Positions 382-17,424 of a stretch of 64,000 nucleotides of DNA are shown in pieces. The stretch comes from Methanobrevibacter sp. V74 (GTDB taxonomy: Archaea; Methanobacteriota; Methanobacteria; Methanobacteriales; Methanobacteriaceae): positions 204,001-268,000 of the forward strand of contig NZ_CAUJAN010000004.1 in the NCBI RefSeq assembly GCF_963082495.1, written 5' to 3'. Made by a program: the position numbers and the translations under genes. How positions within the stretch are numbered: position 1 is the first letter of the stretch; each line of letters opens with the position of its first letter. Below the pieces are notes generated by a model. That model saw nothing but the letters and a program-made list of their open reading frames with translations, was not told where the DNA came from and made no database searches.

Positions 382-825
382 TTAAACCATATTTTGAACT
401 ATTAGGATTTCTTTTATATTTTTTAAGTATCCCATCAATTTTTGTGATGGTTTTCTTTTATATTTTTCAAGGAGATTTATTTTCCCATCAATACTTACAA
501 CAAAATAAGTATCCTCAAATTTATATAATTGTTTAATTGAGTCTAAATCCCAAGCATTATCTATTAATTCATCTCTAAAGAATCTTGCATCATCTAAACT
601 TGCAAATTTACCATAATTTTTTGAATTTTTAATAATTGTATATGAACTATTAATCAATCGAATATATTTTTCAGCCATCAATATGACTTTGTTTTTAAAA
701 ACAGATAAGTTTTGAGATTGAAACTTTAGATAAGTTGTTTTATAAGTTACTTTTTTACCAATTTTAAGTTTAGACATTGTCTTTGATTCTAACCTGTTTT
801 GAACAACAAATCTTAAATTTAGCAT
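382..825 (-). CDS. Hypothetical protein with AP2-like repeat motif
   Basis: A 147-aa basic protein. Residues about 53-90 carry a motif of the form YIRLINSSYTIIKNS followed by GKFASLDDARFFRDELIDN and a Trp. This resembles the short AP2-like or integrase-arm repeats ('tyr-gly-xx-phe-xx-leu-xx-ala ... arg-asp ... asn-xx-trp') common in methanobrevibacter proteins of unknown function. The N-terminal segment before residue 17 may not be translated: an internal Met (MSKLKIGKK) is an alternative start. It has no operon partner. The function is unknown and DNA binding is only a suggestion from the motif. Confidence 0.45.
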   Translation of the reverse strand: MLNLRFVVQNRLESKTMSKLKIGKKVTYKTTYLKFQSQNLSVFKNKVILMAEKYIRLINSSYTIIKNSKNYGKFASLDDARFFRDELIDNAWDLDSIKQLYKFEDTYFVVSIDGKINLLEKYKRKPSQKLMGYLKNIKEILIVQNMV

Positions 826-858: not shown

Positions 859-1315
859 ATGGAAAAAGGAAAAAATGGTTTTATAAGCTATTTTAAATTT
901 AAAATATCATTTTTAGACAAACCAGTTATTTCAACAATATCTTCAATCGAATAAGCTTTTTTAATCATGTTTTTAGCAACATCCAATTTAATTTCTTGTC
1001 TACCTTCTAACCTACCTTCTTCTCTACCTTTTCGTTCACAGTAACGATCCATTGGATTAAGTAACATATAAGTTTCCTCCCTATGAAAAAGGAAAAAAAA
1101 TAGTTTTATAAACTATTTTATATTCAAAATATTTTTTTTAGACAACCCAGTTATTTCAACAATATCCTCAATCGAATATCCTTTTTTAATCATGTTTTTG
1201 GCAATGCCAAATTTAACTTCTTGTCTACCTTCTAACCTACCTTCCTCTCTACCTTCTTCTCTACCTTTTCGTTCACAGTAACGATCCATTGGATTAAGTA
1301 ACATATAACTTTTCT
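859..1315. repeat. Tandem duplication of the rpn 3' end
   Basis: Bases 859-1081 and 1082-1315 are two diverged copies of the same segment. Each runs from the internal Shine-Dalgarno of the rpn gene through its stop codon into 3' flanking sequence. The left copy lacks one 12-bp EEGR-encoding unit and has about eight amino-acid differences. The junction at about 1081 joins the 3' flank of the full-length gene to a copy of the internal ribosome-binding site, so the duplicated piece is a separate small gene. Confidence 0.85.
888..1067 (-). CDS. Stand-alone Rpn C-terminal small protein (59 aa)
   Basis: A 59-aa ORF beginning MLLNPMDRYCERKGREEG and ending KNDILNLK. It is almost the same as the last 63 residues of the upstream Rpn-type nuclease. 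It starts with ATG preceded by a strong GGAGG Shine-Dalgarno 8 nt away (plus-strand 1076-1080), so it is likely translated on its own. It contains no PD-(D/E)XK residues, only the charged EGR-repeat linker and the C-terminal helix ('YSIEDIVEITGLS'). In E. coli Rpn systems a small C-terminal product made from an internal start inhibits the toxic full-length nuclease. By analogy this could be an extra antitoxin copy. The alternative is a neutral remnant of a tandem duplication. Confidence 0.65.
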   Translation of the reverse strand: MLLNPMDRYCERKGREEGRLEGRQEIKLDVAKNMIKKAYSIEDIVEITGLSKNDILNLK

Positions 1316-2021
1316 CCTCATATTGTTTTGATTCACTATCATCTAACATATTTGTACTTAAAACATCGAACAAATAAATAATCGCTTTTTTCTCATTAAT
1401 ATCCATTTTAGATTTTTCAGCAATCTTTTCAAAAAGATTACGAGCTTTAATTAAAATATTTAATGGAGATTCTTCATAATCTGTGTAAACAATTACTTGA
1501 AGTGATGCAATATCTTCATCTGTAATTTCCTCACTGTTTTTTAGTTTATTTTCAATATTTTTAAAGATATCTGTTGCTTTGAATTTTTTAAGAGAAATCA
1601 TGTGCATTATATAATTACATCCCTCATTAATCCCAAATTCTATTTTATCATATTTTGCTTTTTTAGTGCACAAAATAAATAAATCAACATATTCATCTAT
1701 AAATATGCGTAAAGTAGACACATACTGATAAAATCTTTTAATATCTTCACCTGTTGGAAGTGTTGACTGACATTCCAATATTAATGATGTCCTCTTCCCA
1801 TCTTTTTCTGCTTCACATACAAAGTCAAGACGGGAAATTGAGGGCCCTAAACTAATATATTCAGACAACAATACTTTTTTGATAGTATATGGAATATTCA
1901 TGAATTTTAATAGACCATTTGCTCGACTATGTAGAATAGCTTTAAAAATATAGTCGTTGAATTGACCATAAGTTTTATTTGAAATATCTATTTTTGAATT
2001 CATAATCATTATTTTGGACAA
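1113..2021 (-). CDS. Rpn family PD-(D/E)XK recombination-promoting nuclease
   Basis: A 302-aa protein of the Rpn / PD-(D/E)XK transposase-like nuclease family, involved in DNA cleavage, recombination or phage defence. The catalytic pattern is visible as Asp66 (SRLDFVCEAE) and Glu83-Cys-Gln85 (LILECQS). The opening NKTYGQFNDYIFKAILHS is the usual 'D-x-xFK' N-terminal block. A highly charged RGREEGREEGRLEGR linker at about 252-268 precedes a C-terminal helix domain (VEITGLS). Inside the gene, a GAGGAG motif lies 9 nt before ATG at codon 240, which would give a separate 63-aa product. The gene stands alone, followed by a duplicated copy of its own 3' end. Confidence 0.85.
   Translation of the reverse strand: MSKIMIMNSKIDISNKTYGQFNDYIFKAILHSRANGLLKFMNIPYTIKKVLLSEYISLGPSISRLDFVCEAEKDGKRTSLILECQSTLPTGEDIKRFYQYVSTLRIFIDEYVDLFILCTKKAKYDKIEFGINEGCNYIMHMISLKKFKATDIFKNIENKLKNSEEITDEDIASLQVIVYTDYEESPLNILIKARNLFEKIAEKSKMDINEKKAIIYLFDVLSTNMLDDSESKQYEEKSYMLLNPMDRYCERKGREEGREEGRLEGRQEVKFGIAKNMIKKGYSIEDIVEITGLSKKNILNIK
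1302..1320 (-). promoter_or_regulatory. Internal Shine-Dalgarno and start inside rpn
   Basis: On the minus strand TGAGGAG is followed by 9 nt and an in-frame ATG (1304-1302). Translation from here gives MLLNPMDRYC... to the normal stop, 63 aa. The same arrangement is kept in the duplicated copy, with the even better match GGAGG and 8-nt spacing, which supports a real internal initiation site. Confidence 0.6.
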
Positions 2022-2268: not shown

Positions 2269-5187
2269 TTAGTCGCGAACAAAATAACTGTAGAGCTCAT
2301 CTTTGACTTCACAGTCAAGACGGAATGTGAAATTAACAATCGGATGACTTTTACCATCAATATTTCTGTAAAGTTGTTTATAATTTAATGGTGTCAGACT
2401 GCCCATATAATAAAACTCTATTCCTTCATCATTACTTTTTTGGATAAATAACTCAATATCCAAATCATCATAATCAACTAACGGCTCCAATTCTTTTGAA
2501 GAAACTTTGCGATTATTCCTACTCATCCATGAGAAGGTACCTTTATTAATAAAGTGATCATTGTAGTTTATTGTCTCTGAAATATCTTCTGACTTATCAT
2601 AAGTGACAAATATTGGGCAGGTATTGTATTTTATTTTATACCCTCCGATATTTTGCCCATTCATAAAGTAATCCCAGTTCAAGATCCTTAAAACGTCTTC
2701 ACGAGAGTATTTCTCATACAATTTAAATTGCAAGTCAGATTTATAAATCATTTCATATTTATAAAATGCATATTTTAATGCGTCGTTTAAATGATTATAA
2801 TATGTTGGATTTGTTAGCGCTTTTTTAAAGCTTGAGGATATTTCAAATCTCTCCGTATCATCTTTGAAGTTGAAAAATAAATTCTTGGGGTTTGATACAA
2901 TGTTTTCTATCGTATTCTTTTGATGACCTTCACCGTTTTCTTTTCTATAAAAGTTCAGGCTTAAAAAGTTAATGGCCCCTTCAATATCATCTATCTGATT
3001 GAGAAGGCCAAAATTATCTTTTAAACACTCTTCGACTTGTGAAACAGTGAAATATTTGTTGATTTTCAAACATTCCAAAATTATAAGTTCATGTGGCCTA
3101 ATTCCCTTTAACAATTTTTTTGAAATAAATTTCAATGAATCCCTCTCATCGTCACTTATATGTGAAGAATAGTCCTCTTCAATGTCGCATAAAAAATCAT
3201 GATATGTCGGATAGTCCTTGTGATTGAGAATCAATTCAGGATTAAATTCGCCGTTGACTGCAAAATCATATAATGACGGAATGTGGCCCAACTTGTATTT
3301 TAATTGATTGTACTTTTCTTTAAACAATGCCTTTCTTGAAAAGGAAGTATTGTTAATTGACTCATAGATGCGCTTTTGTGAAATTTCATCGAAGTTGATT
3401 GATGATGCTCCAGGAATGATCTTATTTCCTTCCATCAAATACTTGCGAATCCTGTCCTTATCATAAGATCTGTCTCCCGAAAGAGCTATTGGAATCATGA
3501 AATTATTTTTGTAATTTCCAATAAAGTCAATGATGACAACATACTCCTTATCCTGATATTTCCGAAGACCCCTGCCTAATTGCTGAATGAAAATAATAGG
3601 AGATTCAGTTGGACGAAGCAATAGAACTTGATTAATCTCTGGAATATCAACACCTTCATTAAAAATATCAACAGTGAAAATAAACTCCAATTTATCTGGA
3701 TTGTCATCATTTACTAGTCTGTCAATGGCCTCAAGACGCATATCCTGTGCATCCTCACCGGTTAGGACAAGAGAAGCATGACCTCTTTTATTAAATTCAC
3801 GAGACAACATTTGGGCTTCTTTTTTTCTTGAGCAAAATACTAACGCCTTTCGTCTCTCTCCCGAGTATCCGTAAAACTCGGATTTTTCAATCAAATAATC
3901 TGCTCGCTCATCTGATGCAAGCAAGTTAAAGTCATCAAAATCATCATCAATCTCACCACTCTCAAATACAACATCGCTAATGCCAAAGTAATGAAACGGA
4001 CATAACAGATCTTCTTCAAGAGCCTCTTTTAATCTAATCTCATGGGCAATATTGTTGTCAAACAAATCATAAATATTGAAAGCGTCACTGCGCTCTGGTG
4101 AAGCGGTCATGCCCAGTGAAAATTTGGGTTTGAAGTAGTCTAAGACTTTTAAATAGGACAATGCTCCTGCTTTGTGAACTTCATCCACTACAATATAGTC
4201 AAAATAATCTGGAGAGAATTTGTGATAAACCTCATCTTTAGACATGGTTTGGATAGTGGAGAATAAATAATTTTTATCGAAATCTTTTGAATTGCCGGTC
4301 AATAGGCCAAAATCATCATGATTTTCAAATACATTCCTATAAGCTTCAATAGATTGCTTTGCAATCTGTTCCCTGTGAACTAAAAATAGAAATCTTTTAG
4401 GATTAAAATCCTTAACTGCAAAAGCAGATGCATAGGTTTTACCAGTTCCTGTAGCAGATACAAGGATTGCACGCCTTTCACCGTGACTCACTAGATTTCG
4501 AATATTTTCTAGAAACTGCTCCTGCATATAGTTTGGAGTCAGAACAATATTGTTTTCTTTTATTTTACGTGTTAACTTTCTAAAACTACTGAACTTTTTA
4601 CTATCCCTATAAATTTTTTCATAAATTGGAAGCACATCACAGAGATTTTCCCCATCAACCCATAGTTTTTCAAATTCGTTTTTGATTTGGTTTAACATCT
4701 CCCCCTCTTTTAGTGATGTGAACTCGACATTCCATTCTTTGTTAACGCTAAGTGCATTCATTGTCATGTTGGAGCTTCCAACAATTCCTGTGAAAACATC
4801 CCCTTTTCTAAAAATATATCCTTTAGTGTGAAAACCTTCATTTTCTTGCAGATAAAGTTTAACATCAATATTTTTAAAAGAATTGAGTTTTTTTAATGCT
4901 TCCGGTTCGGTGAAGTTCAAATAATCAGTAGTTAGGATTTTACCTTTAATATCATGATTTTCTAGATAACTAAAAACTTCCAGTAAGGGAGTGATGCCGC
5001 CTTTTGTGATGAAAGCAACCGAAATAATAAACTCATCGCAATTTAGAAGCTCATCCCTAATTGAATTAATGATTTTGGAGTTATCATTGTTTGACAGCAA
5101 TCTTGGACGAAAGTTAGCACTGGAAGTGGAATTTTCATCAACGAATGCTGTTCTTGCACCATTTAAAATTTCAATCTGATTATTCAT
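2269..5187 (-). CDS. PLD nuclease / SF2 helicase / DUF3427 protein
   Basis: A 972-aa multidomain protein. Residues about 40-180 form a phospholipase-D-like nuclease module, with His120-x-Lys122 in 'FHTKGYIF' and GSSN at 137-140. Residues about 215-390 are the first helicase domain: Walker A SATGTGKT at 244-251, DEVH at 335-338, TASPERSD at 361-368. The second helicase domain lies at about 430-570 (VDIFNEGVDIPE, QQLGRGLRK). The C-terminal third matches the DUF3427 type (CPIFVTYDKS, SRNNR). It probably unwinds or cleaves DNA. Its ATG overlaps the stop of a 48-aa ORF (ATGA), and a NUDIX gene precedes that, so the three are likely translated together. Family members occur in defence-rich regions, so a role against foreign DNA is plausible but unproven. 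Confidence 0.85.
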   Translation of the reverse strand: MNNQIEILNGARTAFVDENSTSSANFRPRLLSNNDNSKIINSIRDELLNCDEFIISVAFITKGGITPLLEVFSYLENHDIKGKILTTDYLNFTEPEALKKLNSFKNIDVKLYLQENEGFHTKGYIFRKGDVFTGIVGSSNMTMNALSVNKEWNVEFTSLKEGEMLNQIKNEFEKLWVDGENLCDVLPIYEKIYRDSKKFSSFRKLTRKIKENNIVLTPNYMQEQFLENIRNLVSHGERRAILVSATGTGKTYASAFAVKDFNPKRFLFLVHREQIAKQSIEAYRNVFENHDDFGLLTGNSKDFDKNYLFSTIQTMSKDEVYHKFSPDYFDYIVVDEVHKAGALSYLKVLDYFKPKFSLGMTASPERSDAFNIYDLFDNNIAHEIRLKEALEEDLLCPFHYFGISDVVFESGEIDDDFDDFNLLASDERADYLIEKSEFYGYSGERRKALVFCSRKKEAQMLSREFNKRGHASLVLTGEDAQDMRLEAIDRLVNDDNPDKLEFIFTVDIFNEGVDIPEINQVLLLRPTESPIIFIQQLGRGLRKYQDKEYVVIIDFIGNYKNNFMIPIALSGDRSYDKDRIRKYLMEGNKIIPGASSINFDEISQKRIYESINNTSFSRKALFKEKYNQLKYKLGHIPSLYDFAVNGEFNPELILNHKDYPTYHDFLCDIEEDYSSHISDDERDSLKFISKKLLKGIRPHELIILECLKINKYFTVSQVEECLKDNFGLLNQIDDIEGAINFLSLNFYRKENGEGHQKNTIENIVSNPKNLFFNFKDDTERFEISSSFKKALTNPTYYNHLNDALKYAFYKYEMIYKSDLQFKLYEKYSREDVLRILNWDYFMNGQNIGGYKIKYNTCPIFVTYDKSEDISETINYNDHFINKGTFSWMSRNNRKVSSKELEPLVDYDDLDIELFIQKSNDEGIEFYYMGSLTPLNYKQLYRNIDGKSHPIVNFTFRLDCEVKDELYSYFVRD

Positions 5188-7023: not shown

Positions 7024-8895
7024 TTAAAATTTAAAGTAATTAAACCTTGATTGAATTAATAAAGCTTTAATAACTTCTTTAATAAATACTTCTAAATTAT
7101 CTTCTTCAGAACCATCATTTCCAGGAGTTAACGAAAATGCACCCACTGATGGAATTATCATATTCGACTCAAAGAATTGTTTTGTTTTATTTCCAGGATA
7201 CAATACATAAGATCCTTCAGTTTTTAAAATAGAATCTTTGTAAGTATGCATTTTATAGATATCTCCATCTTTAAAAACGTATTCTTTTTCTTCACGTGAG
7301 TCCCGTTCCTCAATTTCATCATCAATTTGTTTATCAGAGTGTATTGTACTATAAAAATCAACAATTTCAAGTTCTGATCTGTATTTTGCATCAAAATGAA
7401 TATAATTTATATTATCATTAATTTTAACAAGCAAAGTGTAATCTGGTTTAAAAGCCAATGAATAAGATCTGTATTTTGACTCATCGGAAAATCTTAAATT
7501 ATAAAACAAATTTATTTCAATATCAAAACCATACAAATTTAAATAAAATCTCTTAAAATGATTGATGATTGTGCTCCTTTTTTAATACTTATTGACCAAT
7601 TATCTTTGTTAATTTTAAAAACATCTTCAAAATCACTTTTACAAATACTTAAATCATTTAAAACTTTTAATAATTTAAAATAACACCAATATTCATATAA
7701 TTCACTTAATTTCTTTTCAAACCCTTTGAATTGATCATTAATTTCATTCCAACTTAATCTAAATGAAAATTCAAGAATTAAAAAGTATTGGAAAATTTCT
7801 CTGTATCCCTCTTTTTTCTGCAAAATTTGTGAGTTAAATGGAACATATTCCATTGTTGAGATATGATTAAAAAATTTATTTGATAGATAATAGTCAATTT
7901 CCTCTCCAAAATACCATAGCTGATCTTTAATATAACCTTCTTTAGAACTTTTAAGTAACTTTTCAACCAAATCCCTAATTAATTCTAAAAAATATTTAAA
8001 AAATCTATTTTCAGGAGTATTGATAATATCTTCATGTTTAATTTGCTCTATTTCATGGGGAACATATCCCATTTAATCTATGAACAATTTTAAAATCAGC
8101 ATCTGATTTAAACAGATCATTTGGATTAGATACAATATTTTTTAAAGTATTTTGATTAACATTAGATGCAAAAGATAATGGAACCGTTTCAGCATGAGTT
8201 TTAAGATGAGAATGTAAGTTTTTAGACAGATATTCAAAAATTGATGGGAGATTTTCTTGTCGGAATAGATATTCTAAAAACATGAAGTCCTCATAATATG
8301 TTTCTTTTTGTCTGTAATCAAGTTCAAATTCTTGGTATAACTGTGAGTTAATCTCAAATAATAAATTTAATGAATATTGTGATAAATCAGCGATCATAGT
8401 AGAGTATTGATTGAGATAATCAATTTTTTTAGATCTAACTTCAATTGGAATTTTAGTAGAAGTTATCCCATCTTTTTTAACATCTAAAAATGATTTTCCA
8501 ACATAGCTTCTAAAATTTAGAGTTCCAGCGATTTTATACTGATTACTATTCCCTAATGAGAATCTAAACTCTTTGAAATGATTATCGTTAACTTTAGTTA
8601 GTGAATATAACACTTCGAAACTAGATTTTACATCTTCTGATTCGAATAGTATTTGATACTCTGTTTCTTCTAAAAACATTAATTTAGCAAAATTAGCTCC
8701 AATATTTGGACAATATTGAATTGGAGTTATATTATCTGGTTCATCGACAACAGGAACATTATTTAATGATATTGAATGTGAAATATCCAGATTAGAATTA
8801 TGATTACCATTGTAATCTAGTGAACTGACCGTCAATGTTCCAAATTCATTTGAATCCTCATCAACAAGTTGAATAATAACTTTTTGCTCAATCAT
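7024..8895 (-). pseudogene. McrC-like DUF2357 nuclease, split by two frameshifts
   Basis: Three consecutive frames make one protein. 8895-8053 is a DUF2357-type N-terminal region (KIPIEVRSKKIDYLNQY). 8072-7539 is the middle. 7536-7024 carries the PD-(D/E)XK core, seen as PDYTLLVKI and HFDAKYR. The joins are single-base slips. At 8068-8070 GGG should be GG, restoring RLNGYVPHE. At about 7536-7541 one T is missing, restoring RDFILNLYGF. It sits 7 nt behind mcrB and would be the nuclease partner in a McrBC/LlaJI-like restriction system. As sequenced it is inactive. Sequencing error in short homopolymers is possible. Confidence 0.75.
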
Positions 8896-8902
8896 TTAAA
8901 TC

Positions 8903-10749
<1,847 letters not shown>

Positions 10750-15795: not shown

Positions 15796-17127
15796 TTAGT
15801 GTGTTTTTTTCTTGTTTCCTGGATGTTTATTATAAACATCCGGGGTTTTTCGTTCTTTATTATTGTATTGATTTTCTTTATATTGTATTAGTTCTTTAGA
15901 TGCTTCTTTTACTATAAAATCGATTATTTGCTCTCTTTTCGTTTGCGTTTCAAATATTAGGTCAAATAAGAATAAATAGATGTTTCCCGTTATTTTTGCG
16001 AAATTCGACTGATAAATTATTTTTTCATCTTTATTTCTGGGTATTCTTGTTATATTGTTTTCTGCATGATTTTTAATTGTCATTGCTAGGTTATAAACGA
16101 ATATGTGGGCGTGAAAATCTTGTTCGATTATTGTTCTTCGAATTCCGCTGAAATCTTCGATTTCGATTAAATTTTTTAATCTGTCAAATCCAGTTTCAAC
16201 TGCCCATCTTTTACCATATAATTCTTTTAAATCTTCTGTTGAGAATTCTTCAGATGTTAAATTTGTTGCAAGTATTTCAGGTTCGTTCTTACCAATATCT
16301 ACTAATGCTATGCGAATTTCTAATCGCCCCATCTTTCTTGCTTTTTCTTTTAAATTTTCATCATCAAAATGACTTAATCTATTATTTGTTAAATTTATTT
16401 TTATAATTTCATCATTAGTCTTCATTTGTTTGATTAAATGTCTAAATACATTTTTTGGTAGTCTTATTAAAAATTTAGAGTTTAAATCAATGGTTTTTGC
16501 CATGAGTTCGATTGATGGATATCCTCGATCGTAAATGGTAATTAATTTTGTAATGTTTAATCTTTGTTTTAAGTTCTCTAAATGTTCAATTGCTAAATCT
16601 ACTTCATTTATTGTTGTTTCAACAATTTTTGCTGTTAAAATATGTTTAGAATGAACGTCTAAAAGACATGAAACTCTTGCACGAATTCTTTTTTCTTTTA
16701 ACAGGTTTTCATCACCAACAGGGAATTCTTCACGTGTTAAAGTAACATTGGGAAGATCAATAATACTTCCATCACAAGCACTAACAATATATCCTTTAAA
16801 TTTTGAAAATCCAGAATATTTGCCATATAATTGGTCAATAAAAGATTCATTCATATCAATAAAAACTTTTGGGTCAATGAACATTCTTTGTTTTCCAATT
16901 CCTTGGCTAGAAATTGTTTTAAACTTCTTATTCAATCCTATTGTGAAAAATCTAATCGTTTCAATATAAGATGTACAGCTTCTTTGAGAAAGAATAAATG
17001 TTGTATACTCTTTTTGAGTCATTTTTCTATCTCTAATAAACTTATTATCTTCAGTTACATATTTTTCAGATATAAAAACATCAAATAAACTGAAAAAATC
17101 TTTGACAAATCTATCATAAGAATACAT
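15796..17127 (-). CDS. IS4-type DDE transposase
   Basis: About 443 aa from the ATG at 17127 (preceded by GGGGGTTGG). The DDE triad is visible: Asp in 'SACDGSIIDLP', Asp in 'IYDRGYPS', and Glu in 'YGKRWAVETGFDRLK', the Y-x2-R-x3-E-x6-K signature of IS4-family enzymes. The ORF is intact and could be active. Weak imperfect inverted similarity (ATTATTTGATTAG near 15786 against ATTTATTTGATTGG near 17141-17156, minus strand) may mark the IS ends. It interrupts an otherwise gene-poor stretch between the symporter and the DUF4258 gene. Confidence 0.85.
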   Translation of the reverse strand: MYSYDRFVKDFFSLFDVFISEKYVTEDNKFIRDRKMTQKEYTTFILSQRSCTSYIETIRFFTIGLNKKFKTISSQGIGKQRMFIDPKVFIDMNESFIDQLYGKYSGFSKFKGYIVSACDGSIIDLPNVTLTREEFPVGDENLLKEKRIRARVSCLLDVHSKHILTAKIVETTINEVDLAIEHLENLKQRLNITKLITIYDRGYPSIELMAKTIDLNSKFLIRLPKNVFRHLIKQMKTNDEIIKINLTNNRLSHFDDENLKEKARKMGRLEIRIALVDIGKNEPEILATNLTSEEFSTEDLKELYGKRWAVETGFDRLKNLIEIEDFSGIRRTIIEQDFHAHIFVYNLAMTIKNHAENNITRIPRNKDEKIIYQSNFAKITGNIYLFLFDLIFETQTKREQIIDFIVKEASKELIQYKENQYNNKERKTPDVYNKHPGNKKKTH

Positions 17128-17424
17128 CAATCCAACCCCCAATCAAATAAATTCATGATTAAAAAACTTTAATTACTTATATAAATATATATATAATTAA
17201 TAATATTTAAAATAAACTATTAATAATTATTAAAATTAGATATAAATAAATTAAAATTAATTAATAAAGTATTAAAATAAATAATAACTGATTAAAGCAA
17301 AATAAATCAAAATTAGCAATTTTCAATGAATAAACAATGATAAAAAAAATAAAAAATCTTAAGTTTCTAGGAATGTATTACATTTGTAAAAAATATATAA
17401 TAAACATTTACATATTAATAACTG

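Follow-up and report, generated by a model that had tools for sequence, protein, structure and literature searches.

The closest described relatives of the locus analyzed here are the Rpn systems of Escherichia coli, presented as the first characterized antitoxin encoded inside its toxin gene: a small protein, RpnS, made from an internal start, blocks the full-length protein RpnL (Zhong et al. 2023; PMC10327210, cited throughout from the parts of its text available to us). The number of 4-residue repeats in RpnS varies and influences specificity, and RpnCS lengthened by one repeat failed to inhibit RpnC (PMC10327210). The same source describes second RpnS copies downstream of rpnE (the ypaA gene) and, in some strains, of rpnC, each clustering with its own parent. 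RpnES (ypaA) is expressed, and the K-12 protein was detected (PMC10327210); PMC5350276, likewise available to us in part, saw no activity of K-12 RpnE in its assays. As cited in PMC10327210, the TAEL repeats of EcoR124I and EcoR124II also derive specificity from the number of 4-residue repeats, but there the repeats read the spacing of a DNA target, whereas in Rpn they set the register of a protein-protein contact. Two archaeal phyla are named in PMC10327210, and a fusion is mentioned as well. In the available text, we found neither archaeal stand-alone copies nor a register mismatch and its frequency, and a literature search by titles and abstracts found no further paper on stand-alone Rpn copies.

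An rpn gene and a stand-alone copy of its tail in Methanobrevibacter

The window, a stretch of 64,000 nucleotides from Methanobrevibacter sp. V74, contains on the minus strand an rpn gene (1113..2003) for a probable PD-(D/E)XK-type nuclease (RpnL) with a variable C-terminal tail, as judged from a profile match, aligned residues, and AlphaFold2 modeling. The open reading frame (ORF) ends with the stop at 1113 and comprises 302 amino acids (aa) if it starts at TTG 2021, or 296 aa if it starts at ATG 2003; the latter is the start that agrees with close relatives in the alignment, and TTG 2021 is a possible extension. The 302-aa protein matches TIGR01784 (COG5464/TIGR01784 family) with E = 8.9e-13 and 48.7 bits, below the curated cut-off of 52.1, over residues 22-299 (profile positions 2-271); a sum of 82.2 bits is reached only if adjacent matches are added up. 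The PD-(D/E)XK catalytic residues are present: in an alignment of 20 sequences, D60 and E77 are invariant, and 90% or more of the sequences have Q79 and R90. The first-pass annotation of an Rpn nuclease is supported. The probable roles of D60, E77, and Q79 are assigned by likeness to the PD-(D/E)XK active-site residues mutated in RpnA (PMC5350276).

The AlphaFold2 model of the rpn product (20 sequences, mean pLDDT 82.7) consists of a mixed sheet/helix core, a 35-residue helix (residues 239-273) containing the repeats, and two short helices; the weaker part lies at about residues 231-260, with block means of 52-63 pLDDT. Besides the active-site residues, the protein shares with RpnA a three-helix tail in the models and a weak tail match (phmmer against RpnAS, 7TH0, E = 0.058). 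It differs from RpnA in its low overall sequence similarity, and a stand-alone RpnA copy goes unmentioned in the available part of PMC10327210. In the 2.3-Mb genome, a protein search (E <= 0.01) matched just the rpn gene and the stand-alone copy described below, which were again the sole places found by a TIGR01784 search (E <= 0.001).

Inside the rpn gene, the hexamer GAGGAG (1314..1319, minus strand) precedes by 9 nucleotides (nt) an in-frame ATG at 1304, which corresponds to residue 234 of the 296-aa form. Initiation at this internal Shine-Dalgarno (SD) site and ATG, both of which had been correctly noted in the first-pass annotation, would yield a putative intragenic RpnS-like product of 63 aa (1113..1304, minus strand), a candidate suggested by the sequence and by the family-wide synonymous-site test presented below. 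Four 4-residue repeats of the G-R-x-E type (1218..1265, minus strand) fall within the long helix of the parent protein. A tail with a varying count of 4-residue repeats in its first helix is present in the archaeal family, as in the Rpn genes-within-genes systems.

Downstream of the parent gene, on the same strand, is an ORF for a 59-aa stand-alone RpnS paralog (888..1067, minus strand; TIGR01784 E = 9.2e-10), with three 4-residue repeats at 993-1028. Its start codon lies 45 nt past the parent stop and has its own SD sequence, GGAGG (1076..1080, minus strand), 8 nt upstream, an arrangement of the rpnE-ypaA type. The AlphaFold2 model of the 59-aa protein alone contains three helices (mean pLDDT 73.1). 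That this ORF is a tandem duplicate was borne out by two pairs of direct repeats, far above chance: one of 161 nt (89% identity, spacing 225 nt) and one of 103 nt (84% identity, spacing 237 nt). The inner duplication unit (1084..1317, minus strand) runs from the SD sequence to the 3' untranslated end, with approximate outer edges, and the outer unit (859..1080, minus strand) shows homology from 13 nt before the ATG to an approximate 3' edge. Chance or an assembly artifact as the source of the duplication is ruled out by the direct repeats and the genome search; four single-contig genomes share the arrangement. An AT-rich inverted repeat followed by a T run, spotted by eye, is found after both stops (1084-1115 and 859-890, minus strand), possibly a terminator carried along in the duplication.

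Once four residues are taken out, 51 of the 59 residues of the copy are identical to the parent tail. The "EGR deletion" reported earlier is therefore real in that four residues are missing; it is not a mere detail, being one unit of the family's known variable 4-residue repeat. With three repeats against four in the parent, the copy lacks the equal repeat number expected of a cognate antitoxin under a rule drawn from one E. coli experiment. In our view, this difference matters most: if that rule applies, the copy in the window is not expected to fit the adjacent toxin. The arrangement itself is already published for E. coli (rpnE/ypaA and rpnC; PMC10327210), a point that the first-pass annotation overlooked; the E. 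coli precedent that it did name, inhibition of the toxin by an intragenic small product, is supported (PMC10327210). The locus resembles E. coli rpnE-ypaA (RpnEL/RpnES) and rpnC with rpnCS, as described in the available part of PMC10327210, in combining a nuclease gene with an internal start, a tail with variable 4-residue repeats, and a separate downstream copy closest to its own parent. The copies are also out of register in the E. coli pairs that we read. What sets the present locus apart is the archaeal host and an identity of at most 66% to the relatives aligned.

Directly upstream of rpn is a gene for a 972-aa PLD/helicase/DUF3427 protein (2269-5187, minus strand) that matches PADLOC mREase_IV (E = 1.7e-222), so that rpn adjoins a restriction-type defense gene. 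Farther away, a McrBC-like region (7024-10438, minus strand) has its DUF2357 and PDDEXK_7 matches split over three ORFs (7024-7536, 7539-8072, and 8053-8895), which suggests a broken or frameshifted gene; these ORFs adjoin a 511-aa protein matching PADLOC PDC-M26A. A DDE transposase (PF01609) is also encoded nearby (15796-17142, minus strand). On the other side, 62 nt past the small copy, is a 147-aa ORF (382-825, minus strand) with no Pfam match. Its relatives occur in 57 of 138 family genomes, the best ones mostly in frames of about 300-360 aa, so the ORF may be a remnant of a longer gene. We dropped it as a candidate part of the Rpn system because the relatives listed sit elsewhere, mostly in these longer frames.

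The internal start and the retention of copies in Methanobacteriaceae

Among 138 genomes of the family, 72 had a match to the full protein and 50 to the small protein. The matches listed and the stretches fetched around them gave 145 loci and 138 frames with the N-terminal domain; 120 of these frames were at least 200 aa long, and 113 had at least 300 nt downstream. To find copies, the same-strand sequence following each gene, over a maximum of 900 nt, was scored against that gene's own tail. A clear upper group emerged, with 42 of the 120 genes scoring at least 50 and 39 at least 100. The antisense control reached a maximum of 46, and the upstream control exceeded 50 four times (61, 75, 149, and 338), where adjacent rpn genes are probably responsible. 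Intact-copy counts were based on 36 of the 42 parents scoring at least 50. Left out were G068:C214 and G056:C77, whose copies are broken; G054:C52, at a contig end; G029:C36, with truncated rpn copies of greater length; and G018:C32 and G029:C18, which had no candidate of score 70; as well as one fragment at G072:C35.

The arrangement, which had been proposed for a search in related genomes, does recur across the family: 42 intact stand-alone copies follow 36 of the 120 Rpn ORFs among the matches listed, a proportion that is not an unbiased frequency because the loci came partly from the small-protein search. Relative G100, for example, has both rpn and a stand-alone copy. At one locus (G058:C21, L126), the Rpn tail has apparent 7-residue repeats, and the downstream copy is 21 residues short, equivalent to three such units.

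The internal start was analyzed by comparing the real Methanobacteriaceae genes with 200 synonymous shuffles of those genes. In 84 of 118 genes, the tail region contained an in-frame ATG preceded by an SD match of at least 5 nt, against 44.1 +/- 4.4 (maximum 54) in the shuffled sets. The N-terminal region, used as a control, had such internal sites in 6 of 97 cases, against 8.2 in the shuffles. At E-E-x-x-M sites, the Glu-Glu pair is written GAGGAR in 18 of 21 cases, compared with 37 of 140 other Glu-Glu pairs (Fisher P = 2.7e-7). The internal start in Methanobacteriaceae is therefore selected at synonymous sites, and this excess supports, by sequence alone, internal translation of RpnS in archaea.

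The copies are also kept: more of them have remained open than would be expected under neutrality. In a neutral simulation with half of the divergence placed on the copy, 14.9 +/- 2.8 of 42 copies were expected to lack a premature stop, against 42 observed; the simulation used closed copies only, a choice that inflates the excess, though few broken or weak candidates were seen. The pooled copy-parent dN/dS was 0.46 (median 0.39, 40 pairs). Six of the 42 pairs fell between 0.86 and 1.3, five of them at 0.9 to 1.3, and three of these above 1. An SD match of at least 5 nt precedes 29 of the 42 copies. In 32 of 42, DNA homology to the parent begins 3-60 nt before some shared Met codon, a raw count in which the Met is not always the SD-linked one. 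Taken together, the homology borders and SD counts indicate that the duplicated unit tends to resemble a translation unit.

The first-pass annotation viewed the copy as an antitoxin being freed from its toxin gene. The survey speaks against this: an internal SD match of at least 5 nt is present in 30 of 36 parents with an intact copy and in 47 of 72 without (P = 0.07), so that parents with copies retain the internal start. Within the compared set, 37 of the 42 copies are most closely related to their own locus, which implies repeated duplication rather than relocation.

Repeat numbers and possible tail exchange

The length of the repeat region equals that of the parent in only 2 of 42 archaeal copies; 37 are off by non-zero multiples of four residues, and 3 differ otherwise. 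Copies are shorter in 28 cases and longer in 12 (P = 0.017). At loci with two copies, the parent and both copies are all unequal in five of six; at the sixth, G037, the two copies equal each other. Six copies at five loci in four single-contig genomes are all mismatched.

Orthologous parents of comparable divergence match more often. When every gene entered a single pair, 6 of 10 parent pairs with at least 85% identity matched, compared with 1 of 20 tandem loci (Fisher P = 0.002); with the limit lowered to 70%, the counts were 7 of 17 for parents and 2 of 32 for tandem loci (P = 0.005). The matched parents include two full-length rpn genes that lie in tandem within a single genome (G025:C383). 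If this pair is set aside, 5 of 9 parent pairs match at the higher limit (P = 0.005) and 6 of 16 at the lower (P = 0.012). When the comparison was confined to the 70-85% band and genes were reused, parents and tandem copies showed no difference in matching (5 of 23 and 1 of 14, respectively; P = 0.38). A stratified permutation, in which pairs share genes, favored an overall excess of mismatch in tandem copies (P = 0.0028).

None of the E. coli pairs that we read matches either. For rpnE/ypaA, the 11 pairs differ by +1, +1, -4, -3, +3, +3, -4, -5, -3, -4, and -4 repeats, the K-12 pair among them. The seven rpnC pairs, which exclude an rpnC with an internal stop (L183), differ in length by -6, -10, -10, +8, -8, -14, and -6, not all multiples of four. 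These 18 pairs represent 15 distinct ones, from loci picked for a seeming downstream copy rather than at random; from the printed lengths, by eye, the two repeat numbers look independent. The K-12 ypaA is annotated as a pseudogene, and 9 of the 10 other ypaA copies are flagged as incomplete, AHB7 being the exception.

The mismatch may come from fast repeat turnover without selection or from the duplication event itself. Matches may also be depleted if identical tandem copies are lost by recombination or collapsed in draft assemblies, but the six single-contig copies and the complete E. coli genomes argue against assembly alone as the cause. In one pair of archaeal parents (G066:C191 and G077:C17; L105 and L095), 82 aligned tail residues and 210 N-terminal residues are identical, and the tails differ by 8 residues, or two repeats; in this pair, repeat number was apparently the first thing to change.

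Tails and free copies also appear to have been exchanged. In E. coli 146, AQ15, and KE51, rpnE bears the ypaA tail, and a separate ypaA is absent; these are the three that we read among 24 records with a single query place in a spread sample of 60 rpnE matches. The repeat block of KE51 is the ypaA block of LR-58-2 and SCU-313. The fused rpnE could have arisen either by deletion between direct repeats or through the opposite history. These alleles imply that the free RpnS sequence and the toxin tail are interchangeable in natural genomes.

Searches of phage and viral-contig sequences gave no support for phage-borne RpnS mimics or viral inhibitors. A search of 50,697 phage records with the 59-aa archaeal protein gave no matches (E <= 0.01), and none of 123 pattern-matching stretches in viral contigs was confirmed with alignment A2. 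E. coli YpaA matched 8 records of the phage collection, two of which carry the label of Salmonella strains instead of phages.

Possible roles of the stand-alone paralog

The reading that we tentatively favor is an archaeal Rpn toxin-antitoxin gene accompanied by a register-shifted RpnS paralog that would act as an alternative antitoxin and as a tail donor. By its sequence, a single gene carries both the nuclease RpnL and, behind the internal start, the C-terminal RpnS; the RpnS unit (SD, ATG, ORF, and 3' end) has been duplicated in tandem and has stayed open, with one 4-residue repeat fewer. Both small ORFs are presumably translated, and the internal RpnS, always in register with RpnL, would be the cognate inhibitor. 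The out-of-register paralog may bind to itself, or to an RpnL with the matching register, and not to the adjacent RpnL. It could be maintained both as an antitoxin for the alternative register and as a homologous donor: if the two repeats recombined, RpnL would acquire a new tail, switching toxin register and internal antitoxin in one step. Against the favored reading, this genome contains no second RpnL on which the copy could act.

The lack of another RpnL is a point in favor of a rather doubtful alternative, a plain second dose of antitoxin, in which the copy is translated and inhibits the adjacent RpnL, and the repeat difference only tunes affinity. The 45-nt spacer and the strong SD site suggest co-expression, copy and parent are closely related, and RpnES (ypaA) is made in E. 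coli (PMC10327210). Repeat-region length, however, differs in 40 of 42 archaeal copies and in all 18 E. coli pairs. Given that one extra repeat abolished RpnC inhibition (PMC10327210), most stand-alone copies are predicted not to silence the neighboring toxin. The register statistics thus argue against the spare dose, provided that the RpnC rule, which was derived from a single E. coli protein with a single extra repeat, is general. The recurring mismatch suggests that the additional copy does not merely increase the amount of the cognate antitoxin.

Such mismatch could also be a by-product of recent tandem duplication with fast repeats, the copies being neutral or nearly so and subject to continual birth and loss. 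That most copies have their best relative in their own locus, that broken copies exist (G068:C214 and G056:C77), and that repeat number shifts between the otherwise identical G066 and G077 parents are all in line with this explanation, and gene conversion or very recent birth could imitate part of the retention signal. The excess of open copies over the neutral expectation, even if inflated by the choice of closed frames, the pooled dN/dS, and the SD sites before most of the copies speak against it, and we consider a neutral origin unlikely. A DNA-binding role, with the stand-alone protein as a helix-turn-helix (HTH)-like repressor of the rpn promoter or modulator of the toxin mRNA, appears quite improbable: a weak HTH_7 match (E = 0.024) and the HHPred likeness of RpnS to HTH motifs (PMC10327210) point that way, but the HTH matches fall under curated cut-offs, and the RpnAS structure is explained as an oligomerization domain (PMC10327210).

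Extending the favored reading, Rpn loci in archaea and bacteria might be small register-switching arrays, in which the nested pair matches and downstream RpnS units are kept in other registers. These units could provide immunity to RpnL alleles of the corresponding registers that arrive by gene transfer, or spare tails that recombination would place on the toxin, changing its register at a stroke, for example, to escape a viral inhibitor adapted to the previous register. We offer this broader scheme as speculation and think it, on balance, improbable.

Compared with the E. coli work, what is new here is that, in Methanobacteriaceae, the internal start is under selection, copies are retained, and the frequency of mismatch has been measured. 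The synonymous-site result carries selection for internal translation of RpnS over to archaea. If free copies are indeed systematically out of register, the assumption that they supply a second dose fails, and the locus would become a test case for the ways in which a defense toxin diversifies its interaction specificity. Loci that combine two free copies with three different repeat numbers would offer ready-made matched and mismatched pairs.
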